Both the position numbers and the translations under genes were made by a program. Source: Rhizobium sp. SL42 (GTDB taxonomy: Bacteria > Pseudomonadota > Alphaproteobacteria > Rhizobiales > Rhizobiaceae). Taken from it: 64,000 nt of DNA. Every line of letters starts with the position of its first letter. The stretch's first letter is position 1. This document shows, in pieces, positions 29,020 through 53,626 of this stretch. The notes under the pieces were generated by a model, which saw only the letters and a list, made by a program, of their open reading frames with translations, ran no database searches and was not told the DNA's origin. The stretch is from NCBI RefSeq assembly GCF_021729845.1, contig NZ_CP063399.1:62001-126000 (forward strand). The letters run 5' to 3'.

Positions 29020-29925
29020 TCAGATTAGTTTACCTTCGAGTACTTGGATGTGCTCACGGCAGATTGTCTCGACGGTCGCCTGAAGCAGCTGTGTCTGTCC
29101 GATCAGCCATGACAGCGCCTCATCGCTGATCTCGAAATGTTCCGAGTAACGCGCCTTCACATAGGCTTCATTGAGCACATTATACCAAGCGGTAAACCTG
29201 TGCTGATCACGCGGCCAGACTTCCACCAGCTTCCGATCTAGGTCTTCGGCCAACCCGCGCAGGAACTTTAGATTGTGCGAGGGAGGGCTGTAGTTGGTTA
29301 GAGTCAGAAGTAGGCAAGAATAGAGAGTTTCGGTCGCTTGATGAAGATTGAAGGCTGCATGATTTAGCATACCATCTGCAACAGCATACCGCGCTAGTTG
29401 GCAATAGTAGCGAGCGCTACCTGCCTGCCTATCAAAATGGGCCCGTGCGATTTTTAACTCATCGAGAGCTGATAGATTTTTAGGCTCTCCCAGTGGCTCC
29501 TCATCGATCTCGTGCAGGACGATACCTTCGCGGCGAATATCGGCGAAGAAATACTGGCCGTCCTTTAGAGCCTTATTGACCTCCCGCAGTCCATGCACGA
29601 TCAGGCCAACAGGTGTCTTCACACCGGGATCCCACAGAAGGCGATCCTCCGCCTTGTCCCAGTATTGGCGGTCGGCGAGCTTGCCGGTGTTGACGATGAC
29701 AAGGACGTCATAGTCGGACCTGTAGCCCTTCATCGTATGGGGCTCGTCGACCCAGGTTCCCCGTGCGTAGGACCCGAAGAGGATGATCTTGAGGATGCGG
29801 CCGCGCTTCTTGAAGTCGGCTTCGGCGCCGGAAAGGGCGTCTGCAAACTCTTCCTCGATGATCTCGACGACGCGAGCAAGCTCACGCTGTTTCTTTTCCG
29901 GGAGGTGCTCAAGGCTCGATTTCAT
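29020..29925 (-). CDS. Fused nucleotidyltransferase-HEPN protein
   Basis: 301 residues from ATG 29925. The N-terminal MNT-type nucleotidyltransferase has ILFGSYARGTWVDEP and, 11 residues on, YRSDYDVLVIV (GSxxxG and DxD catalytic motifs). The C-terminal half (about residues 165-300) is a HEPN domain (LDELKIARAHFDRQAGSARYY, FNLHQATETLYSCLLL). Two-gene HEPN-MNT pairs are toxin-antitoxin modules in which the MNT protein AMPylates the HEPN toxin; here both are in one chain, so its role is open. The RNase-type R-x4-6-H motif is not obvious. Confidence 0.82.
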   Translation of the reverse strand: MKSSLEHLPEKKQRELARVVEIIEEEFADALSGAEADFKKRGRILKIILFGSYARGTWVDEPHTMKGYRSDYDVLVIVNTGKLADRQYWDKAEDRLLWDPGVKTPVGLIVHGLREVNKALKDGQYFFADIRREGIVLHEIDEEPLGEPKNLSALDELKIARAHFDRQAGSARYYCQLARYAVADGMLNHAAFNLHQATETLYSCLLLTLTNYSPPSHNLKFLRGLAEDLDRKLVEVWPRDQHRFTAWYNVLNEAYVKARYSEHFEISDEALSWLIGQTQLLQATVETICREHIQVLEGKLI

Positions 29926-30026
29926 AGCCAATCGATAGGACAAAGGTTGTGCTCCGTCTACTCGCACATTTCATAGTTTTTGAAGGAAAAGCCGCCGTCT
30001 TCTGTCGGCTTTTGTGTGAATCCCGC

Positions 30027-30728
30027 TCAAATCAGCTGGCGCTGGGTCGCGATTGCGATCGCCTGGGCCATGCTGGCGGCGCCAAGCGCTCGCCGGGCAT
30101 TACTGAGGTGGAATGCGACTGTCGACAAACTGAGGCCTTCAAGCATTGCCGCGTCCCTCATCGTCTTTCCCTCGGCCGACCAGCGCAGGCAGACGGCCTG
30201 CATCGGCAACAGACTGACAGGCTCCGGGTCGCGGCCAACTGCGGGACGGTTTTGATAGCGCGCATACAAGAGTGCCACAACGGTCGCAGCCTTCACTTCA
30301 TCGACCGGTTTCAGGCTGATGGCTTGGGTGGCAGAGGTCAGTATCAGAACGGCGATGTGACCGAACCCGGTCTCTATCGGAATGGTGAGGCCAAAGCGCA
30401 TTCCACGCCGGTGAGCATCATCCAACAGGAGCCTGGCCGATCGTGACGCAATCTGCCGCAGGGTAGGAATATCCCAGCTAAATACACTCATTCTGCCGCG
30501 TGCCAGCGCTAACATTGGATCGACGCAATTGGCGGTGATGTCGAAATACAGTGTCTGCCAGTCGGGGTGTGTATTGGTGACAAAATTGGCGCCATTGGAG
30601 CAGGAGTGCATATAGGTAAAGTACTCAAAGCCCGCCTGCTGGATGACCTGCGCCAGTTCTTCGCCAAGCTGATCCGGATTTTTTGTAATTGCGACCCTAT
30701 CAATGATGGATTGAAGCCAGGAACTCAC
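30027..30728 (-). CDS. traR: TraR-type LuxR-family quorum-sensing regulator
   Basis: 233 residues from GTG 30728, which has AGGAGA at good spacing; an upstream GTG at 30770 would overlap the preceding stop but lacks a site. With this start the acyl-homoserine-lactone pocket residues fall in the same register as in Agrobacterium TraR: W57, Y61, D70, P71, W85 and G113. The C-terminal LuxR HTH follows (LRWSAEGKTMRDAAMLEGLSLSTVAFHL), although the usual Glu before the HTH is Gln (PMQAVCLRW). TraR activates tra and trb genes when bound to the lactone. It is the last gene after an oxoamine-synthase-like gene. No traI synthase gene is in the window. Confidence 0.85.
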   Translation of the reverse strand: MSSWLQSIIDRVAITKNPDQLGEELAQVIQQAGFEYFTYMHSCSNGANFVTNTHPDWQTLYFDITANCVDPMLALARGRMSVFSWDIPTLRQIASRSARLLLDDAHRRGMRFGLTIPIETGFGHIAVLILTSATQAISLKPVDEVKAATVVALLYARYQNRPAVGRDPEPVSLLPMQAVCLRWSAEGKTMRDAAMLEGLSLSTVAFHLSNARRALGAASMAQAIAIATQRQLI

Positions 30729-30766
30729 GCAGGATCTCCTCGTCTGATTGATGGCCGTCTTGTCTC

Positions 30767-32020
30767 TCACGCGCCTGCGTCGCGGATCTCAGCTCTCACC
30801 ACTTCGATGGCAAGGCAAAGATCACGGATTTGCGCCTCGGTGTGCGATGCAGTGAGGCAGATGCGCAAACCGGCATCGCCGCGCGCCACTGTCGGGAAAA
30901 AGATCGCAGACGTGTAGAAGCCGAGTTTCAGTAGCTGGCGCGCTGCAGCCACCGAAATAAGCTCGTCGCCAAAGCGGATAGTGCGGATCGGCAGGTCTAT
31001 TGTTCGGTCACGGGTCGGCAGCAACTGGTCAAGCAGTGCAAGATTGCGTCGAAGTGCATGCTGACGCTCTGCCAGCTCTCGACTTCTGTGGATTTCTGCC
31101 GACGCCGCAGCCGCCCCGATCGCAGCCGTGTTCAGCGACGCCGAAAATGCATGTGCCACGGCAAATCGGCGAAACAGCAGTTCCTGGGCAGCGGTGCCGA
31201 GCATCAGGATACCACCGGACGCACCGAAACCCTTGCCAAGCGAGGCGGCAACGATCGTCCTGTCGCCAAGCTCGGCAAATTCGGACCGGGCAAAACCAGA
31301 TCCGTTTTCGCCAAAGAGTGAAATGCCATGGGCATCATCAATGTAGAGAAAGAGGCCATACCTCTCCTGCAACGCGCGAAGCGCCTTCAACGGGGCGCTG
31401 CCGCCCATGGAATAGACGCCGTCACAAACATAGGCGACGCAAGGATGGCTGCGGCAAAGCGCCTCCAGCGCGATCATGTCATTGTGCTGGATGGTATCCA
31501 CTGCCGTTTCGCCGGCGACGGTAGCCTTGTGCTGGGCAAGCGTCGCATGAGCGGACCGGTCGAAGACGACAAGTGGTTTTACGCCGCCGGTCAGATGGCC
31601 GGAGGCAAGCAGAGGCAGGGCGCTCATATTGGCGGCCAGCACGGTGGTGAATGTGATGACTCTTGCCTGGAACAGATCCGACAGGTTTTCCTCAAGCTCG
31701 CCCAAGATGCTGAAGTTCAGCCTCGTCCTGGCACAAGACCAGTGCAAGGTCCCTGCATCATGGACCGCCCTCTTAGCGCTCGCAACGATTTCCGGATGAT
31801 TGTCCAGACCGAGATAGGAGCAGCGGACAAAATCGGTGATATCGCGATCCTCCGCCGTGAGCCGAACCGTCCGGCCGGACACAGGCGCCGCATAGAGCGC
31901 CATGATTCCCTGGTAGTGCGCTTCCTCGAAATTGGCACCTGCTGCATCGATCATCGTTGCAGTGTTGCGGAAATGGGTTGGAAGTCTTGGACCATCCGGC
32001 GGCTGAACTGCATTGCTCAT
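30767..32020 (-). CDS. Divergent alpha-oxoamine-synthase-like PLP enzyme
   Basis: 417 residues from ATG 32020 with AAGGAAGG upstream. Class I/II aminotransferase fold: SYLGLDNHPEI at the N-terminus, LYIDDAHGISLFGENGSGFAR (PLP-pocket Asp) and AASLGKGFGASGG with the Schiff-base Lys. This is the layout of KBL/BioF/HemA/CqsA enzymes, which condense an amino acid with an acyl-CoA. The glycine-rich GTR loop is altered (LHWSCARTRLNFSILGELEENL), so the reaction may differ. It lies 38 bases before traR on the same strand, suggesting co-expression. It could make an amino-ketone metabolite; a signal role like CqsA is speculation. Confidence 0.8.
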   Translation of the reverse strand: MSNAVQPPDGPRLPTHFRNTATMIDAAGANFEEAHYQGIMALYAAPVSGRTVRLTAEDRDITDFVRCSYLGLDNHPEIVASAKRAVHDAGTLHWSCARTRLNFSILGELEENLSDLFQARVITFTTVLAANMSALPLLASGHLTGGVKPLVVFDRSAHATLAQHKATVAGETAVDTIQHNDMIALEALCRSHPCVAYVCDGVYSMGGSAPLKALRALQERYGLFLYIDDAHGISLFGENGSGFARSEFAELGDRTIVAASLGKGFGASGGILMLGTAAQELLFRRFAVAHAFSASLNTAAIGAAAASAEIHRSRELAERQHALRRNLALLDQLLPTRDRTIDLPIRTIRFGDELISVAAARQLLKLGFYTSAIFFPTVARGDAGLRICLTASHTEAQIRDLCLAIEVVRAEIRDAGA

Positions 32021-32126
32021 ATTGGCCTTCCTTGCTACTTTCGCGAGCAGTTGGCCATTGTTTCCTTTTTGTGACAACGAAGCTTGTGCAAAGAAAACTT
32101 CAAGATTGTTCAAAGATCTGGAGGGT

Positions 32127-32837
32127 TCAGCCTCCCGATCCGCGGACAACCGCGACATAGCCGCTTGATCTCACGGTGCGGATATGGGTGTGCCCAGTTG
32201 TGGCCGCCATGTCGCGCCGCAGATTTGCAATGTGCACATCAACGGTGCGGGTGCTGACATGGCTGTGCCCGGGCCATGCCGCTTCGATCAATTCGGCGCG
32301 AGACACAACATGACCGGCCGTCTGGAGAAGACGCCGTAGCAAGCGGAACTCGATTGGGCTCAGTTGCGCGCTGCCTTGTGCGCTGCGGACAAGCCGGGTC
32401 TGGGTATCGATTTCAATATCGCCGAAATGGCAGACAACAGGAGCGAAACCTGCCTTCTCACCGGTTTTGGTGTTGGTGCCCGCCAGCCCGTGCAGATAGG
32501 CGAGGACGCGCTCGGGCGAGACGGGCCGCACAAACCCCTCATCTATGCCTGCTTTGAGCAAAAGGAGATAACTCTGCTCGTGGCGGGCCCGTATCAATGC
32601 AACGATTGGCAATTGCGCCGTCAGACCATGTGCTTTCACCTGACCACAGAATCGGACCAACTGATCGACATTGTCGCCGGTATCGACAAGAATTGCAGCA
32701 ATTGTCGGCGGTGGCGCACTGAGGATCGAAGCCAGGTCATCGGCTGGCATTGTCCTGAACCCAGATGAAGACAGGATATGGCTCATCAGCATGTAGAAAT
32801 CCGGATCCATGGAATAGATCATTACCAGATCAGTCAT
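32127..32837 (-). CDS. OmpR-type winged-helix regulator with degenerate receiver domain
   Basis: 236 residues from ATG 32837. An N-terminal receiver-like domain (about 1-115) keeps the acidic start (SMDPDF) and an Asp in IAAILVDTGDN, but the conserved Lys is replaced (GFVRPVSPERV) and the Thr/Ser switch position is Ile. The C-terminal winged helix is intact: LSPIEFRLLRRLLQ, AELIEAAWPG, RTVDVHIANLRRDM, IRTVRSSGYV. It is probably a phosphorylation-independent regulator. It lies between the ABC binding-protein gene and the oxoamine synthase gene, same strand, with two dyads just upstream. A relative is at 41787-42461. Confidence 0.85.
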   Translation of the reverse strand: MTDLVMIYSMDPDFYMLMSHILSSSGFRTMPADDLASILSAPPPTIAAILVDTGDNVDQLVRFCGQVKAHGLTAQLPIVALIRARHEQSYLLLLKAGIDEGFVRPVSPERVLAYLHGLAGTNTKTGEKAGFAPVVCHFGDIEIDTQTRLVRSAQGSAQLSPIEFRLLRRLLQTAGHVVSRAELIEAAWPGHSHVSTRTVDVHIANLRRDMAATTGHTHIRTVRSSGYVAVVRGSGG

Positions 32838-32874
32838 CAAACCCGCTCGCCTCCATGTGTGTGGGATCTTCATA

Positions 32875-32904
32875 GACCAGCCAATGCGATCACATTGGCT
32901 GGTC
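32875..32904. promoter_or_regulatory. Long perfect inverted repeat upstream of the winged-helix gene
   Basis: GACCAGCCAATG and CATTGGCTGGTC, 12-bp perfect arms with the 6-bp spacer CGATCA, in the 116-base gap between the binding-protein stop and the regulator start. It could be a transcriptional stem-loop (no T-run on either side) or an operator for the regulator itself. Confidence 0.6.
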
Positions 32905-32920
32905 GACACTCAATCCTCGC

Positions 32921-32936
32921 ATGCCGGTACCGGCAT
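32921..32936. promoter_or_regulatory. 16-bp perfect palindrome
   Basis: ATGCCGGTACCGGCAT lies 17 bases from the long inverted repeat and 18 bases after the binding-protein stop. A continuous palindrome of this size fits a dimeric activator or repressor site. It shares CGGCAT half-sites with the tra-region palindrome at 53254-53271. Confidence 0.5.
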
Positions 32937-32953
32937 TCATCGAAGAGGCTCGG

Positions 32954-34015
32954 TCAGCGTACCCAGTTGTTCCAGCGTTGCAGCAGCATGGCCGCATTGG
33001 CGTTGATCCACACCGCATCTGGCACGATGACATTGGTCTTGATGTCCTCGGGTGTCGGCATCGACTGACGGGTTTTCTCTGACATCAGCGCGATCGCCTC
33101 GGTGCTCGGCGGCGTGCAGGACAGAACATCGCAGGCCTTCGCCTGGACCTCTGGATTGTCGAGCCAGAAGGCGATCAGCTTCAGGGCATTCTCCCGGTTG
33201 GGCGCACCCTTGACCACGGCGACGCGGTCACCCACTAGGAACGAAGCCTCATAGGACCAACCGATCGGCAAGGCATCGTTCTTCATCGCTCTTGCGCGTG
33301 TCAGCCAGATCTGTCCGAGGTCGTATTCTCCATTGCGGAACCCTTGGACACTCTGGTCGCCGGTCTTCCACCAGACTGTGACCTCGTCGCGGATCTCGTC
33401 CAACTTGGCAAAGGCGCGGTCCACATCAAGGGGAAAAAGCTCGTCCTTTTTCACGCCATCGGCAAGAAGAGCCGCGGCCAAAACCCGCCATGGATCGTCA
33501 AAGTTCGGAAAGGCGCGACCACCGGGAAAGGCCTTGGTGTCCCACATGTCAGCCCATGTCCGGGGATGTTCATTCATGCCCTCGTCCTGTCTGTAGGCCA
33601 GCAGGGTGGCAGTCGATTGCAAGAGCGCACCACCGGCAGCGCAGGCATTGCTGGCAAGGTCCGCCTTTGTCGAAAATTGTCGGCAAAACTCGGTCAGGTC
33701 CTCCGTCACCAGCCGGTGGGCTTCGGAGGCCGCCTGGATTTCGCCCTCAAGATAGAGATCCCAGGTGACATTGCCCGCCTTGACCATGGCCGCAGCCTTG
33801 GCGCGCATTTCCGCATTGGTGGCGGACACGATCGTCACGGGAATGCCGGTCTCAGCAGTGAAGGGATCGAACCAGGCTTCCTTCAGTGCGCGGTCATAGG
33901 CGCCGCCGGTCGATGCGATGATGATCGGTTCTGCAGCATCTGCTGGTCGGTCGGCCGCAAGCGTGCCGACCAGAAGGCTCAAGGCAGACAGGCTGATTGC
34001 ATAGATCGTCCTCAT
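32954..34015 (-). CDS. Periplasmic binding protein of a polyamine/opine-type ABC importer
   Basis: 353 residues with a signal peptide ending near PADAAEP. It is a family 1 (PotD/AfuA-like) solute-binding protein: IIIASTGGAYDRALKEAWFDPF at the N-terminus, then PGGRAFPNFDDPWRVLAAALLADG and GQIWLTRARAMKNDALPIGWSYEASF. This family binds putrescine, spermidine and related cations, and some members bind opines or 2-aminoethylphosphonate. The substrate here is unknown. Its start overlaps the upstream permease stop by four bases; it is the fourth gene of the ATPase-permease-permease-SBP operon. Confidence 0.88.
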   Translation of the reverse strand: MRTIYAISLSALSLLVGTLAADRPADAAEPIIIASTGGAYDRALKEAWFDPFTAETGIPVTIVSATNAEMRAKAAAMVKAGNVTWDLYLEGEIQAASEAHRLVTEDLTEFCRQFSTKADLASNACAAGGALLQSTATLLAYRQDEGMNEHPRTWADMWDTKAFPGGRAFPNFDDPWRVLAAALLADGVKKDELFPLDVDRAFAKLDEIRDEVTVWWKTGDQSVQGFRNGEYDLGQIWLTRARAMKNDALPIGWSYEASFLVGDRVAVVKGAPNRENALKLIAFWLDNPEVQAKACDVLSCTPPSTEAIALMSEKTRQSMPTPEDIKTNVIVPDAVWINANAAMLLQRWNNWVR

Positions 34016-34902
34016 GGATGTTCCACTCCTGTAGGGTTCTGGGGATTTGCGGCCTTCGCGAGGAAATGCATGAGGCCGATGAGCAAAAGGGAGGCGATAA
34101 CCGTGACGCTGGAAGCGGCCGCGATCACCGGGGTCAGGTTGAAATCGATGTCTTCGAACATCTTGCGACCGATGGTCTTGCCGCCAACGTCGGAAATGAA
34201 GAAGGCAACCGTTGCCTCATCGAAAGACGCGAGGAAGGCGAAGACGGCACCTGAACCAATCCCTGCGCCGATATTGGGAAGGGTCACGTGGAAAAAGCTC
34301 TGGAGGCGACTTGCGCCACAGTTGAGTGCAGCAAGTTCAAGGGCCGGATCCAGTCGCTTGAGCGCCGCAGACACAGTGATGATGACGAAGGGCACTGCCA
34401 GCACCGTATGTGCCGTCAGGAACCCAACCAGCGTGCCGGTCAACCGCATTGGCGCAAACACCAGATAGAGCGCCACACCCATCACGATGTGCGGGACAAT
34501 CATTGGTCCTAGCGCAAGCGCATTGAGCAGCCCCTTGAAGGGCATGTCGCCACGCTCGATAGCCAAGGCTGCCATGGTGCCGATCACGGTTGCCGTAAGG
34601 GACGTCGCAATCGCAATCCGTAGACTGAACCACATTGCCGCCATCCAGTCGGGATCCCCGAAAAAGGCCCTGTACCAGTCGAGTGTCAGCCCCTCAGGTG
34701 GAAACTGCAGATGTGTGGACATGCTGAGCGACATCGGCAGGATCATCAGGGTCGGCAACACGAGAAAGAAGAGGATCGATGCCACGATAAGCCCGCCCAC
34801 GATGGTGAAAGCCGATCGCAATCCGTATCTCGCGATCCGCGCCTGGGGGACTGGCCGGTTCCCTACCGAGACAACGGGCGCTATGTTTCTATCAACGAAC
34901 AC
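34012..34902 (-). CDS. ABC importer permease (PotC-like)
   Basis: 296 residues starting GTG 34902, overlapping the upstream permease gene by 11 bases. It has six predicted membrane helices and the BPD_transp_1 EAA-type loop ELAALNCGASRLQSFFHVTLPNIGAGI. It is the second membrane subunit of the polyamine-type importer. The C-terminus ends shortly after the last helix, and its stop overlaps the binding-protein start. Confidence 0.9.
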   Translation of the reverse strand: MFVDRNIAPVVSVGNRPVPQARIARYGLRSAFTIVGGLIVASILFFLVLPTLMILPMSLSMSTHLQFPPEGLTLDWYRAFFGDPDWMAAMWFSLRIAIATSLTATVIGTMAALAIERGDMPFKGLLNALALGPMIVPHIVMGVALYLVFAPMRLTGTLVGFLTAHTVLAVPFVIITVSAALKRLDPALELAALNCGASRLQSFFHVTLPNIGAGIGSGAVFAFLASFDEATVAFFISDVGGKTIGRKMFEDIDFNLTPVIAAASSVTVIASLLLIGLMHFLAKAANPQNPTGVEHP

Positions 34903-35785
34903 TGTGGAATCCTTTGTTGAGCGACAACGCCTTGCGGAACAGGAAGACGACGAGGAGCGTCACCGCGAGCAACACGGTCGACAATGCGGCAGCGAACGGC
35001 CAATCGAGGAGTACGGTGGTCTGTTGGCCGATCAGCGTGGCCATCAGCATGGAGCCGGGCCCGCCCAGCAGAGCCGGCGTGATGTAGAAGCCAAGAGCCA
35101 GGACAAAACACAAAAGGCCGGCGGCAAAGACACCCGGCAGGCTGAGCGGCAGGATGATCCGCAGGAAAACCTGAGCTGGATTGGCACCGAGATTGGCCGC
35201 AGCGCGCCGATAGTCCGGCGGCAGAGTCTTTAATGTCGAGAAGATAGGCAGGATCGCGAAGGGCAAAAGCACATGAATCATGCCGAGGACGACGGCACCA
35301 TGGGTATAGAGTAGCTTCAGCGGTTCATCGAGCAGGCCCTGATCGCGAAGGAAGCCATTGATTGGTCCATTCCGCTGCAGCAGCAGAATCCAGGCATAGG
35401 ATCGGATCAGCACCGAGGTCCACAGCGGTACGAACACGCAGGCCGCAACGGCCAGTGCCGCTTTCGCCCGCAGCGACGCCATTGCAAAGGCAACGGGATA
35501 GCCGAGGGCCAGGCAAAAGCTGGTCACGGTTGCCGCGGTGATCACAGTGTCGAACAGAATATTCAGATAAAGCGGATCGTCCCAGATGCGGAAATAGCTG
35601 TTGCCACCATCCGCAAAACTCAGCCCCACCAGCTTTGCCACGGGATAGACAAAGCCGAGTGTCAGCGCGGCTAGGAGGGGTAAAGTGAGAATTCCCGAAA
35701 TCAGTGGCGAAAAGTGCCCGGCATCGCGCGCCGTGACCATTCTGGAAAGACGCGAGCCAGATGTAGGTGAAACTTGCATGGTCAT
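34892..35785 (-). CDS. ABC importer permease (PotB-like)
   Basis: 297 residues from ATG 35785 with GAGGAGA upstream. Six hydrophobic segments and the cytoplasmic loop RRAAANLGANPAQVFLRIILPLSLPGV identify a PotB/PhnU-type permease. It follows the ATPase gene by ten bases. It should pair with the PotC-like subunit to form the translocation pore. Confidence 0.9.
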   Translation of the reverse strand: MTMQVSPTSGSRLSRMVTARDAGHFSPLISGILTLPLLAALTLGFVYPVAKLVGLSFADGGNSYFRIWDDPLYLNILFDTVITAATVTSFCLALGYPVAFAMASLRAKAALAVAACVFVPLWTSVLIRSYAWILLLQRNGPINGFLRDQGLLDEPLKLLYTHGAVVLGMIHVLLPFAILPIFSTLKTLPPDYRRAAANLGANPAQVFLRIILPLSLPGVFAAGLLCFVLALGFYITPALLGGPGSMLMATLIGQQTTVLLDWPFAAALSTVLLAVTLLVVFLFRKALSLNKGFHSVR

Positions 35786-35795
35786 CGCTGTCTCC

Positions 35796-36938
35796 TCATC
35801 GGGCATCGAAAAGCAACGTGGCATCTGCCGTGATCCGCAAGGATACTTCGGCCCCGCGCTCAGGCAGTGCGCCCAGTTGAGCTGGCAGGGACGCACGCAT
35901 GACGACTTCAGGCGCTCCACGAAGGCGGATGAGGGCCGTGCGCGAAGCGCCGGCAAAAACGATCGTCTCGACTGTGCCGGACAGGCCCGTACCCATGGTT
36001 CGCTCCACGGCGTGGCCATCCTGGGAGATGGATCGTGTTCCAGATGCGGATCTCGTGTCGACTTCGACATGCTCCGGCCGAACACCGATCCTCACCGACG
36101 ATCCTTCACCCGGCAGTTCGCCGGAGCGGATATTGGTTGGGCGAGTTTCCAGAAGGGAGAGGCCGCATCGGATCGTCACCGCTGACTTCTCGGTCCGGCA
36201 GACAATGCCCGGGATAAAGTTTATCGAGCCGACGAAGTCGGCGATGAACGCGGTTTCGGGCCGCGTGTAGAGCTCGACCGACGTGCCGATCTGTTCAAGA
36301 CGTCCGGCATGCATCACGGCGACCCGGTCCGACATGGTCAGGGCCTCTTCCTGATCATGCGTGACATAGATGACGGTCGCCCCGATCCGCTCCTGGATCT
36401 GCTTGATCTCGAATTGCATGCTTTCGCGCAGCTTCTTGTCGAGCGCACCAAGGGGTTCGTCCATCAGGATGACCGGAGGATCGAAGACCAGGGCACGCGC
36501 GACGGCGACGCGCTGCTGCTGGCCGCCGGAAAGTTCATGGGGGTAGCGCGACTGCAGGGCGCCGAGTTGCACCAGATCGAGCATCGCATCGACCCGCCTG
36601 TCGGCGTCCCGTCCCTTGGCCAATCGGCGCATCTTGAGAGGGAAGGCAATATTCTGCCGCACGGTCATGTGCGGAAACAGCGCGTATTTCTGGAATACCA
36701 TGCCGATATTGCGGTGATGGGGCGCAAGCGATGTTACATCCTGATCGCCCACGACGATGGCGCCGGCGGTTGGCGTCTCAAATCCGGCAATCATCGTCAG
36801 AAGGGATGTCTTGCCGGAGCCAGATGGGCCGACGATAGAGACAAATTCTCCCGCTTGAACCTCGAGACTGGTGTCGCGGACGGCCCAGACTGGCCCGTAT
36901 CGTTTTTGGACGTGGCGCAACGCCAACTGTTGTCCCAT
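35796..36938 (-). CDS. ABC importer ATPase (PotA-like)
   Basis: 380 residues. Walker [14 protein letters not shown] near residue 38, signature [15 protein letters not shown], Walker [13 protein letters not shown], then a TOBE domain in the last 130 residues, as in PotA/UgpC/FbpC. It is the first gene of the importer operon, divergent from the GntR gene, so the operon promoter lies in 36939-37144 close to the 37096-37110 element and is probably under GntR control. Confidence 0.93.
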
Positions 36939-37095
36939 GCTATTCCCCTTTTGTTTTTTTGAATGCGACTATGCTTGGCCGATCAGTGCGTGCTGAACGG
37001 CGTGCTTTCCCGTCAATTCTGACGGGCAGGTGACTTGAAATGCGCAAATTGCTAATGTTTGATCAGGCAAACTTTGCTGAAACTTCACAATTCCA

Positions 37096-37110
37096 TTTTT
37101 TGTTACATCA
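37096..37110. promoter_or_regulatory. GntR-type operator candidate, copy 1
   Basis: TTTTTTGTTACATCA, in the divergent region between the ABC operon and the GntR gene, 35 bases before ATG 37145. It matches the two elements upstream of the aminotransferase gene (consensus TTTTTGTTAYAYCA). Confidence 0.55.
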
Positions 37111-37144
37111 AAAATTGGGCCTGTCAACACGCTCAGGACGAAAC

Positions 37145-37822
37145 ATGACGGAAATCAATACGGACTACTCGCGCCGCGAGCAGCCACCAAATATTGGCGA
37201 TGCCACCTATAGCCAGCTGAAGGACCGCGTCAGTCGCGGCGCTTACAGGCCGGGCGACAAGCTGTCTATTCGCTCAGCCGCCGAAGTCCTGAACGTCGGC
37301 TTGTCGCCTGCACGCGATGCGGTCAATCGCCTCGTGGCTGATGGCGTGCTGGTTTATGCCGGCCCCAAAACCGTAATCATCCCCGTTCTGTCGGATGCAG
37401 ACCTGCGTGAGATCACCCTGATACGGATTGCCCTGGAAGGCCTTGCCGCCGAGATGGCGATCGCGAATTGCAGCCAGCATGACATTGATTTATTGGGTGA
37501 AATCCAAGCTAAGATTAACGCTGCGCTGGAGACTGGGGCCTATGGCGACGCACTTTGGCACAACAAGGAGTTCCATTTCCATGTCTACGGTCTGTCGCGC
37601 CTGCCACACCTGATCTCGATGATCGAACCTCTTTGGCTAAGGGTCGGCCCTTCTTTCTATGGCCTCTATCCGGAATTCGCCGAGGCTCGGCATGGCGTGC
37701 GAAACCATGAAATGGTGATCGAGGCACTGGTCGACGGCGACGGCGGCGCGCTGCGGGCCGCGATCGAAAACGACATCCGCGACGGCTATCGTCGCCTGCG
37801 CCAGGCACTTCGCGAGCGGTAG
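37145..37822 (+). CDS. GntR-family regulator with FCD ligand domain
   Basis: 225 residues from ATG 37145. The N-terminal winged helix is seen in YSQLKDRVSRGAYRPGDKLS and VGLSPARDAVNRLVADGVL; the C-terminal FCD helical domain includes LTLIRIALEGLAAEMA-like sequence and a His-rich part (LWHNKEFHFHVYGL), which in this family binds a metal and an organic-acid or amino-acid ligand. It sits between the divergent importer operon and the co-directional aminotransferase operon, with matching elements on both sides, and so very likely controls both. Confidence 0.88.
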   Translation: MTEINTDYSRREQPPNIGDATYSQLKDRVSRGAYRPGDKLSIRSAAEVLNVGLSPARDAVNRLVADGVLVYAGPKTVIIPVLSDADLREITLIRIALEGLAAEMAIANCSQHDIDLLGEIQAKINAALETGAYGDALWHNKEFHFHVYGLSRLPHLISMIEPLWLRVGPSFYGLYPEFAEARHGVRNHEMVIEALVDGDGGALRAAIENDIRDGYRRLRQALRER

Positions 37823-37834
37823 GACTTTCAACGA

Positions 37835-37848
37835 TTTTTGTTATACCA
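37835..37848. promoter_or_regulatory. GntR-type operator candidate, copy 2
   Basis: TTTTTGTTATACCA, 13 bases after the GntR stop and about 85 bases before the aminotransferase ATG. Copy 3 begins 29 bases further on, close to three helical turns. Confidence 0.55.
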
Positions 37849-37863
37849 GCTTGACCTTTTGTA

Positions 37864-37877
37864 TTTTTGTTATATCA
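37864..37877. promoter_or_regulatory. GntR-type operator candidate, copy 3
   Basis: TTTTTGTTATATCA, about 55 bases upstream of ATG 37933, in the leader of the aminotransferase-TPP-SDR operon. It has the same orientation and nearly the same sequence as copies 1 and 2. Confidence 0.55.
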
Positions 37878-37932
37878 AAATCGACAACTTTGCAAAGTAG
37901 CCGATTTTTCAGCAACACAAAGGCAAGCACAG

Positions 37933-39288
37933 ATGTTACCAGAAATGGCAGTCGGGACTGCGGCGCGCGAGCGTCCGCGGTCCGCCGACCTCTATCGCCG
38001 TGGCCGCGGCGTCTTCCCTGCGGGTGTCACCCGCTCCACAATCGAGCTCGACCCAGAACCGATCTACATGGCTTCGGGGACAGGCGCCTATGTCTTCGAT
38101 GTCGATGGCAATCGCTTTCTCGACCTGAACAACAATTTCACCACCCTTGTGCATGGACATGGCTATCCGCCTATCGTCGAGGCGGTGAGCGAGCTTCTTC
38201 GAAAGGGCTCGTGTTTCTCCAATCCGACCCAATACGAAATCGCGCTGGCCGAATTGCTCATTGACCGTATTCCGGCCGTCGAGCGGGTTCGGTTCGTCAA
38301 TACCGGCACGGAGGCGGTGATGTTCGCCATCAAGGCCGCGCGTGCCTATACCGGTCGTCCGGCCATCATCCGCTTTGCCGGCTGCTACCATGGCTCCTAT
38401 GACTGGGCAGAAACCGGCCAAAACGGGGTGACGAAGTCTGGAGGCCTGGGCGTCACCATCGGTCTTCCCGCTTACGCGGGCGCGCCTGTGCAATCGGCCG
38501 ACGATGTCGTTGTGCTTGAATTCAATGACGTCGAGGGGCTGGAGCGGGGAATTTCGCAACATGCCGACCACCTGGCGGCTATCCTGATCGACCCCATGCC
38601 GAGTCGGGCGGGGCTGTTGCGTCCCATTCCGCAATTCTCCGAACGCCTGACAACGCTTGCCAGGCGTTACGGCATCCTTGTCATTGCCGACGAGGTTCTC
38701 AACCTTCGGCAGGGCTATCAAGGCGCTTCCGCACGCCATGGGATCCAGCCCGATCTATTGACTGCCGGCAAGATCATCGGCGGTGGTTTTCCCATCGGGG
38801 CAATCGGCGGCCGGTCTGATGTCATGGCAGTCTTTGGTGGTGACGGCCGGCCACCGCATGTGCCGCAGGGTGGCACCTTCTCGGCCAATCCGGTGTCCAT
38901 GGTGGCCGGCCTCGTTGCCATGCAGGCAATGACACCTGCGATTTTCGATCGTCTTGAACGCATGGGCGATGCCTTGTGCCAGCAGCTCCGCGACTGCGCG
39001 GCGCGACTTGATCGACCATTCTCAGTGGCAGGGGCAGCGTCTCTGTTTCGCATTCATCCAAAACCGGTCGTCCCGACCACCTATTCCGAGAGCCGCATGA
39101 ATGCAGGGGAGGAGGAATGCATGCATGACCTCACACGCTTCTTCCGTGACCGGGGCATCCTGCTCCCGTACGGAGCCGCGGCGTGCCTTTCCACAGCGAT
39201 GACCGACCGTGACATCGATCAGGTGGCATCCGTGTTCGAACAGTTCCTTAAAACTCACGATGCCCGCCGCTGGGAGGCAAGATCATGA
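37933..39288 (+). CDS. Class III aminotransferase (glutamate-1-semialdehyde aminomutase-like)
   Basis: 451 residues; ATG 37933 is preferred because the upstream in-frame codons fall in the putative operators. Features are FVNTGTEAVMFAIKAARAYTG and CYHGSYDW (PLP-phosphate region), VIADEVLNLRQG, the Schiff-base Lys in LLTAGKIIGGGFPIGAIGG, and GTFSANPVSMVAG. It resembles HemL-like PLP enzymes, but the operon makes a catabolic or biosynthetic transaminase likelier than a heme role. It overlaps the TPP-enzyme start by four bases (ATGA). Confidence 0.88.
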   Translation: MLPEMAVGTAARERPRSADLYRRGRGVFPAGVTRSTIELDPEPIYMASGTGAYVFDVDGNRFLDLNNNFTTLVHGHGYPPIVEAVSELLRKGSCFSNPTQYEIALAELLIDRIPAVERVRFVNTGTEAVMFAIKAARAYTGRPAIIRFAGCYHGSYDWAETGQNGVTKSGGLGVTIGLPAYAGAPVQSADDVVVLEFNDVEGLERGISQHADHLAAILIDPMPSRAGLLRPIPQFSERLTTLARRYGILVIADEVLNLRQGYQGASARHGIQPDLLTAGKIIGGGFPIGAIGGRSDVMAVFGGDGRPPHVPQGGTFSANPVSMVAGLVAMQAMTPAIFDRLERMGDALCQQLRDCAARLDRPFSVAGAASLFRIHPKPVVPTTYSESRMNAGEEECMHDLTRFFRDRGILLPYGAAACLSTAMTDRDIDQVASVFEQFLKTHDARRWEARS

Positions 39289-41000
39289 ATTCAAATTTTC
39301 TCCAAGAGACTGTCGCGGACCGCGTCGCCGATGCCTTGTTGCGTCATCAGGTGGAATACCTGTTTGCCCAGAGCCTGCCGTCTGCGGTCGTCCTGTCTGC
39401 GGAAGCCCGTGGTATTCGCCAGATCTCCTATCGGCAGGAGAATATGGGCGGGGCGATGGCCGATGGCTATGCGCGCATTTCCGGAAAGGTCGGCGTCGTT
39501 GCGGCGCAAAATGGACCAGCAGCAACCCTTCTTGTACCGCCGCTTGCCGAAGCCATGAAGGCCAGTGTGCCGGTCATTGCACTGGTGCAGGAAGTGGAGC
39601 GTGATCAGGCCGACCGCAATGCGTTTCAGGAACTCGATCATATCGCGCTGTTCCAGTCCTGCACAAAATGGGTGCGGCGCGTCCAGATCGAGGACAGGAT
39701 CGAAGATTATATCGATGCGGCCTTCACGGCGGCGACCTCCGGGCGGCCCGGGCCTGTCGCCCTACTGCTGCCGGCAGATCTGCTGCGTTCCAAAGTCCGC
39801 ACCAGCTTGTCATCGCGCAATGCCAGCCTCGGACACTATCCCCTTGATCGCCCCCGGCCCGCAGACGCACTGATTGACCAGGCGGCAGATTGGATCGCTG
39901 CGGCGAACCATCCGGTCGTGCTCGCAGGTGGCGGCGTGCATGGCGCGGGCGCCTCACAGGAACTGGCACGTCTGCAGGAGATCGCGAGCCTGCCGGTCTG
40001 CACAACCAATATGGGCAAGGGCACGGTCGATGAACATCATCCGCTATCGGCTGGCGTACTTGGATCACTGACCGGGCCGACTTCGCTTGGCCGGCATACC
40101 GTGTCTTTCCTGACCAATGCCGACCTGATTATTCTGATCGGCACGCGCACCAATCAGAACGGTACCGACAACTGGTCGCAGATCCCGAAGACAGCCCGTG
40201 TGATCCATATCGACATCGACCCGAGTGAAATCGGCCGGAATTTCGAGGCGCTGCGACTCGCTGGCGATGCAAGAGAATCGCTGATTGCGCTGAACGTCGC
40301 GCTTGGAAGACGGGATCTTGGCCATAGAAATGCCGAAAGACCTGACCTTGAGAATCGCATCGCACGATGCTGGCAGCAGTTTGAAACGGCGCGTGCTCAG
40401 CGTTACGGTTCGGACCAGTCGCCGATCCGGCCTGAGCGGGTAATGCGCGAGCTTCAGCCCTGGCTGAACGACGATCTGACCGTCGTTGCCGATGCGAGCT
40501 ATTCCTCCATGTGGGTCACGGGCCAATTGCGGGCTGTGTCTTGCGGCACTCGGTTCATCACGCCCCGCGGGCTCGCAGGTCTTGGATGGGGACTGCCGCT
40601 TGCGATCGGGGCAAAGCTGGCCCGTCCTGACGTGCCGGTTGTTGCCCTGGTCGGCGATGGCGGTTTTGCCCATAGCTGGGCCGAGCTCGAAACCATGGTT
40701 CGGTTGAACATTCCTGTGACTGTCATAGTCCTCAACAACGGAATTCTCGGTTTCCAGCGTGATGCTGAAACGGTGAAGTTCGGTCGCTACACCACGGCCT
40801 GCCATTTTGCTCCCGTCGATCATGCTCTAATCGCCGCCGCTTGCGGATGCAAATCCGCTCGCGTTTCCGACCCGGCCGAGCTCGCCGACCTCATCCGGAG
40901 CGGCATTGAGGCAGAAGGTCCCTTCCTCATCGAGGTGATGACGGATCCGGATGCGCATCCGCCGCTGTCACTGTTTGCCAAGATGGATCAGGCGGCCTGA
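39285..41000 (+). CDS. Acetolactate-synthase-like thiamine-diphosphate enzyme
   Basis: 571 residues with three ThDP-enzyme domains. The catalytic Glu is in ISYRQENMGGAMADGYAR; PGPVALLLPADLL ends the Pyr domain; the ThDP-Mg motif GDGGFAHSWAELETMVRLNIPVTVIVLNN is near residue 455. It is similar to acetolactate synthase, sulfoacetaldehyde acetyltransferase and other 2-oxo-acid decarboxylating or ligating enzymes; the substrate cannot be told. It is translationally coupled to the aminotransferase (ATGA) and the SDR (TGATG), so the three should act in one pathway. Confidence 0.88.
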   Translation: MNSNFLQETVADRVADALLRHQVEYLFAQSLPSAVVLSAEARGIRQISYRQENMGGAMADGYARISGKVGVVAAQNGPAATLLVPPLAEAMKASVPVIALVQEVERDQADRNAFQELDHIALFQSCTKWVRRVQIEDRIEDYIDAAFTAATSGRPGPVALLLPADLLRSKVRTSLSSRNASLGHYPLDRPRPADALIDQAADWIAAANHPVVLAGGGVHGAGASQELARLQEIASLPVCTTNMGKGTVDEHHPLSAGVLGSLTGPTSLGRHTVSFLTNADLIILIGTRTNQNGTDNWSQIPKTARVIHIDIDPSEIGRNFEALRLAGDARESLIALNVALGRRDLGHRNAERPDLENRIARCWQQFETARAQRYGSDQSPIRPERVMRELQPWLNDDLTVVADASYSSMWVTGQLRAVSCGTRFITPRGLAGLGWGLPLAIGAKLARPDVPVVALVGDGGFAHSWAELETMVRLNIPVTVIVLNNGILGFQRDAETVKFGRYTTACHFAPVDHALIAAACGCKSARVSDPAELADLIRSGIEAEGPFLIEVMTDPDAHPPLSLFAKMDQAA

Positions 41001-41773
41001 TGGATCAAATTTCGCAGCGTATTGCTGTCGTGACTGGTGGCAGCTCGGGCATCGGGCTTGCCATTGTCACGCAGTTGTTGGCTGCGGGATACAAGGTGGC
41101 GTTCTTTGGTCAGAACCCCGCCCATGTCGATGCAGCACTGTCTGTGCTGCATCGACAGGTCGATTGCCCCGATGTACTCGGCCGATGCACAGACCTGACT
41201 GAGGCGGGTGATGTGGCTTCCTTTTTTGCCGATGTCGCAGATGTCTGGGGAGTGCCGGACACCTTCATATGCAATGCCGGGATATCGCCGAAGGGACCAG
41301 AAGGCGCCACGCCCTTTGCAAGCATCGGGATGGACGAGTGGAATACTGTGCTATCCGTCAACTTGACCGGCAGCATGCTTTGCTGCCAGGCCGTTATTCC
41401 ATCGATGATGTCGAACCGCTTCGGTCGCATCATTCTGGTCGGGTCGATCGCCGGCCGTACCCTTCCGAAAGTGGCAGGCGCCGCCTATGTCGCGTCGAAG
41501 GCTGGCCTCTCCGGACTATGCCGCTCACTTGTTTCAAGCTGCGCTGGGACTGGGGTCACCGTCAATGTGGTGGCGCCGGGACGCGTTCTGACAGACATGG
41601 CAGGCGACGCCGACAGTCCGATCAACAGGGCGATACTGACACGCATCCCCGCCGGCCGCCTTGGTGCGCCCGCCGATATAGCGAACGCGATCAGCTTCCT
41701 CGCTTCGCGTGAGGCGGGCTTCATCAATGGCGCCATTCTTGATGTGAACGGTGGCGAATTTGCCCCCCTTTGA
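41000..41773 (+). CDS. Short-chain dehydrogenase/reductase (SDR)
   Basis: 257 residues. NAD(P)-binding TGGSSGIG motif (AVVTGGSSGIGLAIV), NAG motif (FICNAGISPKG), catalytic Ser in ILVGSIAG, YxxxK in AAYVASKAG, and a C-terminal FINGAILDVNGG. Classical FabG-like SDR that probably reduces or oxidises a carbonyl/alcohol made by the TPP enzyme. The start shares one base with the preceding stop, and the end is followed 13 bases later by the winged-helix gene. Confidence 0.92.
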   Translation: MDQISQRIAVVTGGSSGIGLAIVTQLLAAGYKVAFFGQNPAHVDAALSVLHRQVDCPDVLGRCTDLTEAGDVASFFADVADVWGVPDTFICNAGISPKGPEGATPFASIGMDEWNTVLSVNLTGSMLCCQAVIPSMMSNRFGRIILVGSIAGRTLPKVAGAAYVASKAGLSGLCRSLVSSCAGTGVTVNVVAPGRVLTDMAGDADSPINRAILTRIPAGRLGAPADIANAISFLASREAGFINGAILDVNGGEFAPL

Positions 41774-41786
41774 GCGAGGACAACTG

Positions 41787-42461
41787 ATGACAATCCTCAT
41801 TTGCGTGACAGACGCGCAACTCTTCCTCCTGCTTCGCTACATCCTTGCAAACGAAGGCTTCGAGGCCATACTTGTGACGGAACATGATGAACTCCCGCAA
41901 CTCACCAGTCGAGGACCGGTCTCGGCCATGATCGTCGATCGGGTCAAGCCGGGACCGGGCGCCGACGCGTTTATCATAGCTGCAAAAAGCGTGTTTCCAA
42001 CGGCTGCGATCGTCTGTCTCCATCGGCGCCATGCTGGTGGAGAGGCGCTTTCAAACGCATGTGATCTGCGTCTCGAAAGCCCTTTCAATCCCGGTCTTTT
42101 GTTGGGCTTCCTTCTTCGACTGAGACACCCCCTTGTGAGTAAGAAAGACGAGGACGCCGGCCACATACTTCGCTTTGCCGATCTCTCCATGGATATCGCC
42201 GCAGTCAAGGTCCGCCGGGCCGACCGCGACGTTGTGCTCACGGCCCTGCAATTTCGCTTGTTGCGCCGTCTGCTGCAGGAACCTTCGGCGGTCTGCGAGC
42301 GCGAGGACCTCATCGAAGCCTGCTGGCCAGAATCCGCCGAAGTCGAACCGCGTACGGTCGATATTCACATCGGCCACATCCGACGGGCGCTGACGGGTTC
42401 CGGGCCGGACCTGATCCGGACAGTGCGGGGCAGGGGCTATGCCCTCGATATACCAAGCTAG
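41787..42461 (+). CDS. Second winged-helix regulator with degenerate receiver domain
   Basis: 224 residues from ATG 41787 with GCGAGGA upstream. The receiver-like half has an Asp in VSAMIVDRVKPG but lacks the acidic pair (ICVTDAQL) and the conserved Lys (RLESPFNPG). The winged helix is intact: LTALQFRLLRRLLQ, EDLIEACWPE, RTVDIHIGHIRRAL, IRTVRGRGYAL. It resembles the 32127-32837 regulator in size, architecture and degeneration. It is the last gene of the GntR-controlled operon and converges on a small gene. Its 3' end is duplicated in decayed form at 61500-61713. Confidence 0.87.
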   Translation: MTILICVTDAQLFLLLRYILANEGFEAILVTEHDELPQLTSRGPVSAMIVDRVKPGPGADAFIIAAKSVFPTAAIVCLHRRHAGGEALSNACDLRLESPFNPGLLLGFLLRLRHPLVSKKDEDAGHILRFADLSMDIAAVKVRRADRDVVLTALQFRLLRRLLQEPSAVCEREDLIEACWPESAEVEPRTVDIHIGHIRRALTGSGPDLIRTVRGRGYALDIPS

Positions 42462-42670
42462 TTTTTCAACCTTCTAAACAAACCCGCAAGCTCGCGAAAT
42501 TCAACTTCCTCCCCATCCAGCCACGCGTCGAGGGCGCAGTAGGCGACCGCCGTCGGCGCGTCGCTGCCATACAGCGCGCGCACCCGGTGTGTGGCGCGCT
42601 CAAGTCCATCGGCTTCACCTGAATTGGGCTTACCGTTCTCCTTGGGGCTATCCTGACGATTTCGCGACAA
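42458..42670 (-). CDS. Small acidic protein convergent with the winged-helix gene
   Basis: About 70 residues if translation starts at TTG 42670, which follows AGGGAGAG. The C-terminal half reads THRVRALYGSDAPTAVAYCA, then LDAWLDGEEVEFRELAGLFR. Its stop overlaps the stop region of the 41787-42461 gene. The same tail is encoded by the decayed copy at 61706-61922, with conservative differences (LFGADAPTALAYCALDAWLDG), which argues that it was a selected protein. No known family recognised. Confidence 0.55.
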   Translation of the reverse strand: MSRNRQDSPKENGKPNSGEADGLERATHRVRALYGSDAPTAVAYCALDAWLDGEEVEFRELAGLFRRLKN

Positions 42671-42822
42671 CGCACTCTCCCTGCGTCCGGCAGAGGAGTT
42701 CCAAACAGATGCCCGCCGGACGGTGTCGCACAGCGCACGTCCAACATATGGGCGTGTGTGCCGTCCCTGGCGAAAGGGTCGTTGCTTCTCTGATATTATA
42801 TCTCTCCTTCCGATTGGCAAGA
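42671..42822. promoter_or_regulatory. Conserved leader upstream of the small gene
   Basis: About 150 bases shared with 61923-62072, with long identical strings (CTCTCCCTGCGTCCGGCAGA; CTTCCGATTGGCA). On the minus strand a TATAAT lies at about 42797-42802, and TATACT is at the same place in the other copy. It probably contains the promoter and untranslated leader of the small gene. The two copies do not keep a common reading frame throughout. Confidence 0.5.
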
Positions 42823-47419: not shown

Positions 47420-48028
47420 TCACTTCTGGCCCCCGATCCTTGTGAGATCGATTCGGATACCCGCGTCGTCGGGTTTGGTCGGCGCCTCATCCAATATTGT
47501 CGAAGACCCGTTTTCCTCGAACGCGCCAGCATCATCGGCCTCTACCGGCAAACGCTGTACGATCGCGCCACCGGGACCCTCAGCCCGAAACACATTCTCA
47601 CCCTCGAACTTGCCGGTCCGCCAGGAGTGGATCGCGTCATCGAACAACTGTGGGAACACCTCTTCGCTCGTTGGATTTCCATACCACTTCGCAACGATGC
47701 GCAGGATCTTGGCGAACATTGCCGTACCCGTCCGCAGGTTGGCGCAGGGTTCGACGAGATCTACTTTCAGCTCCGACGCATCCTTCACCCCTATGCCCGC
47801 CGGGATCTGGGTGAGACCAACCCGCACAATAGAGCCGGCAACGTTCTCTCGGACAATCTCGATCGCTTCCTCGGGTGTTTTCGGTTTGCGAACGAGGATC
47901 AGACGGCCTCCGGACTTCACCGTGATGGCAAGCGGATCGTCCGAACCGACCGCCTGGACGAACTGCTCGACGATTGCAGGCTTCAACGAAGGATCGGCAC
48001 ATTCCTTGATCAACGCAGCATCCAGCAT
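47420..48028 (-). CDS. traH: Conjugal transfer protein TraH
   Basis: 202 residues from ATG 48028 with GGAG upstream (a TTG at 48046 is also possible). The sequence starts MLDAALIKECADPSLKPAIV and closely follows TraH of Ti plasmids, where it is the last gene of traAFBH. Its role is not well defined; it has no clear membrane segment. The start is 15 bases past the traB stop on the same strand. Confidence 0.8.
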   Translation of the reverse strand: MLDAALIKECADPSLKPAIVEQFVQAVGSDDPLAITVKSGGRLILVRKPKTPEEAIEIVRENVAGSIVRVGLTQIPAGIGVKDASELKVDLVEPCANLRTGTAMFAKILRIVAKWYGNPTSEEVFPQLFDDAIHSWRTGKFEGENVFRAEGPGGAIVQRLPVEADDAGAFEENGSSTILDEAPTKPDDAGIRIDLTRIGGQK

Positions 48029-48042
48029 GCGAGCTCCATGTT

Positions 48043-49209
48043 TCAAATGTTGAATGAGATGACGAGAGGAAGATCAAACAGGCTGGCCCAGGCCTCGCTG
48101 CTCGCCCGCTGAATGTCGATGATCGACGTCCCCGCGGTCCACCAACCGTTTCCGACTGTAATGATAACGTCGGGGCGGTGGAATGCCGATTGCAAGATCG
48201 GCCAGACGAGGAGTTGTTCGTAGCAGATCAGCGGCGCGACTTTTGTGGTGGCGACCTCTACGACGGGATTGGCGAAGAAATGTGCCCGTGCGCCAGATCC
48301 ATCACCACCACCAATCCAGGCTCTCCACGGCTGCCACATCGATCCGGGCACCGGCATTCGCTCCCGGTAGAGAATCTCTGTCTTCTCAGCGGATATCGTC
48401 ACGAGCACGTTGTCGTATCCGCGACCATCGATGAATGCGGCTCCAGCGATGACCGTGATATCGGTCCCGGCGAGCCCTTTCTGCCAGAAGCGAGCAACCG
48501 TCGGCGTCCAGAAACCGAGAGCACTTTCCGGCAACACGATCGTCGTTCCGGGCGGTCGGGCGCGAACGACATCGATCAGGTCCTGTTGCCGCTGGAGACC
48601 TGCTTCGCGGCCGAGTGACGCTCCCATTTCAAGCTCGACACCGCTCCACGACGCAGGTAGAATCGGCGTCGTCCACTGAGCGGCGGACCAAAGCCATAAG
48701 CCTGTCAAGGTAATGGCTGCAGCCGGCCGATATGGCGTCGTCATGACGCCGAGGCCGGCTACCATCACTACCAGACCCCACCATCCCCAGCCCGGAAATA
48801 GAACGCCTGTGGCGATGATCGGATGTGCCCATCCCAGAATGCCGAAGGGTGGAACTGCCATCACAACACACGCAGCCAGGTATCGGAGCGGCTTCTGCCA
48901 TCCTTTGCGATCCGTCCAGAGCACGGAATGGACCATAACGAAGGCGGAGGAGGCGACGAGCCAGAGCAGAACTCCGGGCCAGATATCCTGACCATAGAAG
49001 TTCGCCACCCCCTGCGGCAAACCACGCGATGCCGCGAGGAAGTAGGCTGCGGAGATCGCCGTCGCCTGGAGGCGCGTCCGCGCCAGGGACCAAAGCATCG
49101 GAAAGGCCCCTGCGACGGGAAGAAGGAGCACATGACCGCTCCAACTTATCAATCCGGCGCCGGCTGATAATGCGACGAGGACACCCGTTCGGAAGAGCTC
49201 AAGGCGCAT
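48043..49209 (-). CDS. traB: Conjugal transfer protein TraB (nitrilase/Lnt-like membrane protein)
   Basis: 388 residues from ATG 49209, overlapping traF by 11 bases. Several N-terminal membrane helices are followed by a carbon-nitrogen hydrolase domain: IVLPESALGFW (Glu), ILYRERMPVPGSMW (Lys region shifted to Arg) and KVAPLICYEQLLVW (catalytic Cys). TraB of Ti plasmids has this layout, like apolipoprotein N-acyltransferase. It may modify a lipid-linked component of the transfer apparatus. Confidence 0.88.
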   Translation of the reverse strand: MRLELFRTGVLVALSAGAGLISWSGHVLLLPVAGAFPMLWSLARTRLQATAISAAYFLAASRGLPQGVANFYGQDIWPGVLLWLVASSAFVMVHSVLWTDRKGWQKPLRYLAACVVMAVPPFGILGWAHPIIATGVLFPGWGWWGLVVMVAGLGVMTTPYRPAAAITLTGLWLWSAAQWTTPILPASWSGVELEMGASLGREAGLQRQQDLIDVVRARPPGTTIVLPESALGFWTPTVARFWQKGLAGTDITVIAGAAFIDGRGYDNVLVTISAEKTEILYRERMPVPGSMWQPWRAWIGGGDGSGARAHFFANPVVEVATTKVAPLICYEQLLVWPILQSAFHRPDVIITVGNGWWTAGTSIIDIQRASSEAWASLFDLPLVISFNI

Positions 49210-53070: not shown

Positions 53071-53139
53071 TGCGACGAAGCTCCTTCAATCGAACAAAAT
53101 CAAAGTGTTCATCGAGAGCGGACGACCCTGCCAGGGGGC

Positions 53140-53202: not shown

Positions 53203-53222
53203 TCGGGATCATGCTCAAAAGC

Positions 53223-53237: not shown

Positions 53238-53253
53238 TCGCATTTCTGCTAGT

Positions 53254-53622: not shown

Positions 53623-53626
53623 GCGG

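Follow-up and report, generated by a model that had tools for sequence, protein, structure and literature searches.

What licenses the transfer of a rhizobial plasmid whose traR gene closes a series of uptake genes? The question is raised by a 64,000-nucleotide stretch of Rhizobium sp. SL42 DNA (the window; C3:62001-126000 of genome G000, C3 being a repABC plasmid of 351,829 bp). On its minus strand, an ATP-binding cassette (ABC) importer, a winged-helix gene (RR2), a BioF-like alpha-oxoamine synthase gene and traR lie in series; divergent from them stand a GntR gene and an operon for an aminotransferase, a thiamine pyrophosphate (TPP)-dependent enzyme, a short-chain dehydrogenase/reductase (SDR) and a regulator (RR1). 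The original prediction, made from the sequence alone, described both arrangements, and the open frames, order and families of each, as well as the strand of the series, are as it gave them; the degenerate receiver that it ascribed to the winged-helix gene is also borne out, Trans_reg_C being matched and no Pfam receiver. The architecture appears to support metabolite gating well, and the locus is probably a metabolite-sensing cassette in which an RctR-type input is joined to TraR as the transfer output.

Sought on other plasmids, the same gene order recurs: importer, GntR, aminotransferase, TPP enzyme, SDR, RR1, RR2 and BioF-like genes stand together on six other Rhizobiaceae plasmids. S. meliloti 1021 pSymA holds relatives of 12 of 13 module proteins (a comparison that includes the NT-HEPN protein and excludes an HU gene), TraR being the exception. 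The rctR/rctC/rctB-rctA circuit of pSymA was reportedly the subject of studies by Nogales in 2013 and Perez-Mendoza in 2005. It is described in two papers (PMC13274422; PMC13055273): RctR represses an adjacent multi-enzyme operon, and RctC activates rctB (PMC13274422). From the text of PMC13274422, matched without locus tags, we infer that the pSymA cluster is this published circuit and that its GntR is rctR. The window likewise holds an RctR-type GntR/FCD regulator (37040..37822, plus strand; PF00392 and PF07729; true start probably 37145) with an adjoining enzyme operon, as judged by synteny and by 53% identity to the pSymA counterpart, the sole pSymA match at E<=1e-30. An RctC-type regulator, RR1, ends the operon, and a predicted operator, O2, precedes it. 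The divergent importer, the aminotransferase-TPP-SDR-response-regulator operon, a small convergent open reading frame (ORF), RR2 and the BioF-like gene are shared as well. The window differs from the circuit in that its output is traR, G000 has no RctB or RctA match, and transfer is encoded by tra/trb genes of the Ti type, accompanied by traI. The claim that no system with this gene set had been described did not survive, given an att-type importer (PMC4051167) and the RctR/RctC enzyme cluster as identified here (PMC13274422).

Seven aligned GntR sequences, used in a pattern-based and non-exhaustive scan that covered 84,980 species genomes, gave 81 matches, of which 80 were kept, at 76 loci. 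The aminotransferase directly follows GntR in 69 of these, and RR2 is beside BioF in 40; with nine earlier sequences (L001-L008 and the window) the counts become 78 and 49 loci, L005/L007, L003/L008 and L006/L061 being near-duplicate pairs.

The predicted link between input and output is a 16-bp palindrome, TTTTGTTGCAACAAAA with variants, first spotted upstream of RR2 in a by-eye reading across loci. The window carries it as predicted operator O1, TTTTGTTACATCAAAA (37098..37113), in the divergent GntR/importer region, a position conserved in relatives, and as predicted operator O2, TTTTGTTATATCAAAA (37865..37880), before the enzyme operon with one mismatch to O1. Of 75 loci, 71 have a best site in the GntR/importer region with at most one mismatch (3-5 in the remainder), and the best site in the GntR-aminotransferase gap has 0-2 in 77 of 78, against 4-8 in one shuffle per locus; the five variants scored were picked from the same loci, making these counts partly circular. 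A search of the 5.17-Mb genome with O1 returns 17 matches (close to the 14 for a reversed control), among which, besides O1, whose zero mismatches hold by construction, only O2 has two or fewer, the others all having three. In L005, L006, L057, L061, L066 and L083 the GntR/importer region shows the variant TTTTGTGACATCAAAA, with which the recognition residues of GntR may co-vary.

Presence of the palindrome before RR2 goes with separation of the output block from the importer. In detached RR2-BioF-output blocks, RR2 has its own upstream palindrome at three or fewer mismatches in 34/34 cases (two or fewer in 32), whereas nine of the 11 fused blocks, defined by a gap of <=200 bp between the solute-binding protein (SBP) gene and RR2, have 6-9 mismatches there. 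The other two, L002 and L028, have 3 and 4, values that include 30 coding bases and become 7 and 6 in a narrower stretch. Loci with a long or broken SBP-RR2 gap were set apart (L021 with 7 mismatches; L027, L045 and L049 with 3), and nine loci without RR2 beside BioF were left out of the comparison. The window has no palindrome copy before RR2, so control of traR by GntR would have to run via the importer promoter; L006, L057, L061 and L066 are TraR-type and detached, and have the palindrome before RR2. The opine-like logic of the original prediction is supported in part: traR does end a same-strand series from an importer region carrying O1, on a plasmid with traI, repABC and tra/trb. Its view of traR as the end of an importer operon needs revision, the conserved unit being RR2-BioF-output, fused to the importer only sometimes.

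The last gene of that unit alternates. If the output is read as the next gene past BioF (past NT-HEPN where, in pAtC58-type and A. rubi/A. rosae loci, that gene intervenes), the 44 uncut blocks end in TraR (10), an RctB-like protein (24; 22 by model, L064 and L065 by tblastn) or neither (10), the remaining five of 49 blocks (L022, L038, L043, L067 and L083) being cut by a contig or stretch end. Neither output lies within ~2.3 kb in L002, L017, L020, L028, L046, L048, L050, L052, L060 and L084. By eye, the gene after BioF in L046, L048, L050 and L084 (Mesorhizobium, Aquamicrobium, Phyllobacterium) resembles a GNAT acetyltransferase. At L016 (0-5100), traR seems reduced to a C-terminal remnant and BioF stands away from RR2, leaving an output that is possibly broken.

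Control of R. etli p42d by rctA/rctB is reported (PMC7403402). The DUF2218-like gene was taken as RctB because its model, A3, has one match each in p42d, pSymA and pAtC58, and the p42d match adjoins traA. Model A3 matches none of the 11 TraR-type genomes or records and nothing in G000. The pSymA gene is not recognised by the Pfam DUF2218 model itself; BLASTP (E 5e-16) and model A3 link it to the DUF2218-like gene of pAtC58. We take rctB to be SMa0974/Atu5116, a literature search having given no confirmation. Two other candidates for RctB were dropped: a 71-aa convergent ORF, whose model has no p42d match in a search run without a positive control, and the NT-HEPN gene, which has relatives in 393 plasmid records.

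RctA follows the same division. A 120-aa pAtC58 regulator annotated next to avhB1, taken as RctA, finds matches in 20/20 RctB-type, 0/11 TraR-type and 0/1 neither-type (L002) genomes or records, 32 in all; G000 has no match, and the same query does find p42d. For L001, L002, L003, L004, L006 and L007 the plasmid record alone was searched, and in draft genomes presence was counted genome-wide, on whichever replicon. The TraR set includes L006 and L061, both A. rubi, and L016 with its C-terminal part of traR; the duplicates L005 and L008, the weakest RctB-like loci L030 and L042, L053 and the other neither-type loci stand outside the test. On a tree with 11 TraR, 23 RctB and 41 unlabelled tips, parsimony requires four output changes, compared with a mean of 9.5 and a minimum of 5 in 1000 label shuffles. 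Identity to a Ti TraR is 82% for the A. rubi/A. rosae protein, versus 34% for that of the window, and RctB-type pAtC58 has the backbone of A. rubi/A. rosae as its sister with support 1.0, which makes repeated capture likely.

The window traR (30027..30770, minus strand) encodes a LuxR-type protein with Autoind_bind and GerE domains, beginning at GTG 30770, with a 4-nt overlap with the upstream gene, or at GTG 30728, the start assigned to a 92% homologue (P0002). Its name rests on best match, since NCBIfam model NF010444 gives 145.7 bits, under the 250-bit equivalog cut-off. The closest solved structure is TraR (1h0m/1l3l), and alignment to solved TraR shows Trp, Tyr, Asp and Trp positions kept that we take to be residues of the ligand pocket. 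This gene is the sole Autoind_bind gene of C3; C1 has five more. Just before the window, a LuxI-type synthase gene (traI, C3:60661-61191) lies divergent from the rep genes; by-eye readings of translations place repC, repB and repA just upstream of the window, and trbB and trbC after traI. Within the window lie trbE, J, L, F, G and I (881..8753, plus strand), and traH, traB, traF and traA (minus strand) and traG (plus strand) occupy 47420..55748. A weak tra-box-like site with two mismatches between traA and traG (53263-53274) is possibly a divergent TraR box. A PF09228 search of G000 for TraM, run without a TraM-bearing genome as positive control, gave no match. Near the tra genes are a GGDEF/EAL protein and two glutamate/aspartate-type binding proteins (58762-61023 and 56862-58740).

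Ti plasmids carry opine-licensed traR genes in occ and arc operons, under LysR- or AccR-type control; in the one Ti record with occ genes that was inspected, traR follows gtfA beside the occ genes. The window likewise would place traR under a regulator reading an imported compound. Its plasmid, too, has traI, tra/trb and repABC, but the regulator is GntR/FCD, accompanied by palindromes, the importer is of Att type and TraR is only 34% identical.

Direct observations are the genes, their order and conservation, the palindromes and where they lie, and the finding that, among the genomes tested, TraR goes with absence of RctA and RctB with its presence. From them a circuit can be proposed in which GntR binding and repression at the palindromes, the identity of ligand and importer substrate, read-through as far as traR and a response of transfer are inferred. 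The GntR/FCD repressor would bind O1, at the divergent importer/gntR promoters, and O2, at the enzyme operon. As its ligand accumulates, probably a substrate of the Att-type importer or a product formed from that substrate, both operons would open, yielding more importer (positive feedback) and enzymes handling the compound. Read-through of the importer transcript would then supply RR2, the oxoamine synthase and TraR, which, with an acyl-homoserine lactone (AHL) from the plasmid's own TraI, would activate tra/trb.

Read-through has a rival. RR2-BioF-traR, or traR alone, might instead have its own promoter driven by one of the two winged-helix regulators, the metabolite acting indirectly through RR1. 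S. meliloti offers a precedent, RctC driving rctB (PMC13274422), and the SBP-RR2 gap of ~117 bp contains a strong inverted repeat (32875..32904; 15-nt arms, 93% complementary, no T-run after). This repeat is absent from the terminator-like sites found and is perhaps an mRNA-stability or attenuation element; hairpins between SBP and RR2 were seen by eye at several other fused loci. An own promoter is nevertheless rather unlikely: BioF and traR lie within 40 nt or overlap, the palindrome is missing before RR2 in most fused loci, and the gap has no promoter-like site, a weak test, by which real sequence yields fewer sites than shuffles. Less probable still is a biosynthetic role, in which the plasmid makes a diffusible amino-ketone-type signal, read by importer and GntR as a non-AHL transfer pheromone. 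The alpha-oxoamine synthase does share a block with traR or rctB, and the BioF-like protein weakly matches alpha-hydroxyketone autoinducer synthases (64 bits, far under the 428 cut-off), but no exporter gene is recognised in the series, and importer/enzyme cassettes without RR genes occur in outgroup loci, one of which, L072, looks catabolic with its MlrC-type metallopeptidase and GNAT enzyme.

Those RR-less cassettes, judged within at most 20.8 kb seen, cluster on one side of the midpoint-rooted tree and, with the surroundings of L072, favour a catabolic origin of the cassette; a relaxase-like gene nearby suggests that the L072 cassette may sit on a mobile element. A search of their neighbours for a substrate clue pointed to no compound; the domains met were MlrC, GNAT, gluconolactonase, relaxase-like and Cucumopine_C. 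In a Chelatococcus locus (L080, 1601-3876), two Cucumopine synthase C-terminal domain proteins lie near such a cassette. RR-less cassettes without transfer outputs, within the stretches seen, also lend something to the idea that an ordinary catabolic operon merely happens to adjoin traR on this plasmid. Chance adjacency is very improbable, however, with TraR or RctB last in 34/44 uncut RR2-BioF blocks, an output that tracks RctA presence in the tested genomes, and at least four changes on the tree.

The preferred reading, a metabolite-sensing cassette with TraR as output, has several points weighing against it. The TraR/RctB dichotomy is incomplete, 10 of the 44 uncut blocks ending in neither, and the SBP-RR2 hairpin might reduce read-through. 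Repression of rctB by RctR is said not to be direct (PMC13274422), whereas the palindrome before the pSymA RR2-BioF-RctB block would imply that direct control reaches at least RR2 and BioF. Perhaps rctB has its own RctC-driven promoter, and traR could have one likewise. Ti-type tra-box-like matches are only slightly in excess in the window (8 against 3.5 expected, a count that 5 of 100 shuffles reach), and around traI they are at chance level (8 against 7.4 expected). An AHL synthase was not found in the TraR-type genome G007 or in the TraR-type plasmid records W04 and W06, and AHL-independent action has been reported for one plasmid TraR (PMC9601222). Plasmid pAtP4 is reported to have RctA and quorum sensing with no rctB (PMC4992315), and rctB of pAtC58 to respond to the Ti opine regulator AccR (PMC4231840); other inputs therefore exist, and in view of both reports two outputs do not give the full picture.

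The importer of the series is of att type and comprises an attA1-like ATPase (35796..36938; PF00005 and TOBE_2; 52% identity to its pSymA relative), permease 1 (34892..36085; PF00528), whose true start is probably at ~35.79 kb, alignments to relatives starting at residue 74-144 of the long frame, permease 2 (34012..34902; PF00528) and an AttC-like SBP (32954..34015; SBP_bac_8), all on the minus strand. The top PDB match of the SBP is 5l9s, labelled mannopine SBP (E 5.4e-151; next 1.7e-43), which we take to be the pAtC58 AttC protein. Gene for gene, the importer has relatives in the att cluster (attA1, A2, B, C) carried by the Agrobacterium plasmid pAtC58 (SBP 65%, ATPase 52%), and the whole module is present on that plasmid; its block differs in ending with a DUF2218/RctB-like gene, RctA lying on the same plasmid. 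The attA2/B/C genes are labelled [mannopine] ABC importer and attA1 [putrescine] (PMC4051167). RR2 (32127..32909, minus strand; true start probably 32837; 48% identity to L001) is matched in Pfam by PF00486 only; the NCBIfam PhoB model spans its residues 27-251 below cut-off. The BioF-like protein (30767..32158, minus strand) belongs to the PRK07505 subfamily (NF005697, 510.8 bits, cut-off 342) and is 68% identical to its pSymA relative. Downstream of traR lies the nucleotidyltransferase-HEPN (NT-HEPN) gene (29020..29967, minus strand; PF01909 and PF05168), a frequent module neighbour of shifting position.

On the plus strand, the enzyme operon comprises a GSAM-like class-III aminotransferase (37867..39288; PF00202; true start probably 37933; match to PDB 6k8h, E 1.9e-119), a TPP-dependent acetolactate-synthase-like enzyme of PRK06112 type (39285..41000; NF004772, 941.5 bits, cut-off 673), an SDR oxidoreductase (41000..41773; PF13561) and RR1, a winged-helix regulator in an RctC-like position (41751..42461; Pfam PF00486 only; 43% to pSymA). 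Catalytic lysines, the SDR YxxxK and the TPP motif look intact by eye. No receiver family in Pfam matches RR1 or RR2, and the NCBIfam PhoB model aligns along the full length of both below cut-off. The small conserved convergent ORF (42458..42730, minus strand; ~70-90 aa, start uncertain), which resembles the A1 family, is the C-terminal end of a longer frame (42458-43303). By eye, within 42458-43583, this longer frame lies antisense to an HlyD-type-looking fragment, and a transposase-like frame (43549-44394) stands beyond it; the module edge seems rearranged.

Systems of known kinds are opine-licensed traR and rctB under RctR control; searches of open-licence papers, mostly left unopened, did not turn up an RctR-type sensor with TraR as its output, the operator or the exchange of outputs. 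On a Rhizobium chromosome, luxI/luxR are mentioned together with genes for SBP_bac_8, GntR and response-regulator proteins, a context that may be a further module relative (PMC13133039). The signal opening rct-controlled transfer is called unknown in PMC13055273, PMC13274422 and PMC8628070. The predicted operator, the importer with its solute-binding protein and the enzyme set open the way to a search for this signal by screening ligands and by reporter assays. The findings also connect control of transfer with the att genes of pAtC58, the old 'attachment' genes, and suggest one common input for the quorum-sensing and rct classes of rhizobial plasmids. The chances seem about even that one swappable sensor, reading one compound through the same predicted operator, licenses the transfer of symbiotic, At and accessory plasmids, with at least four TraR/RctB output exchanges matching each plasmid's transfer machinery. 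The sensed compound may then act as a common go-signal by which plasmids spread through the rhizobia.

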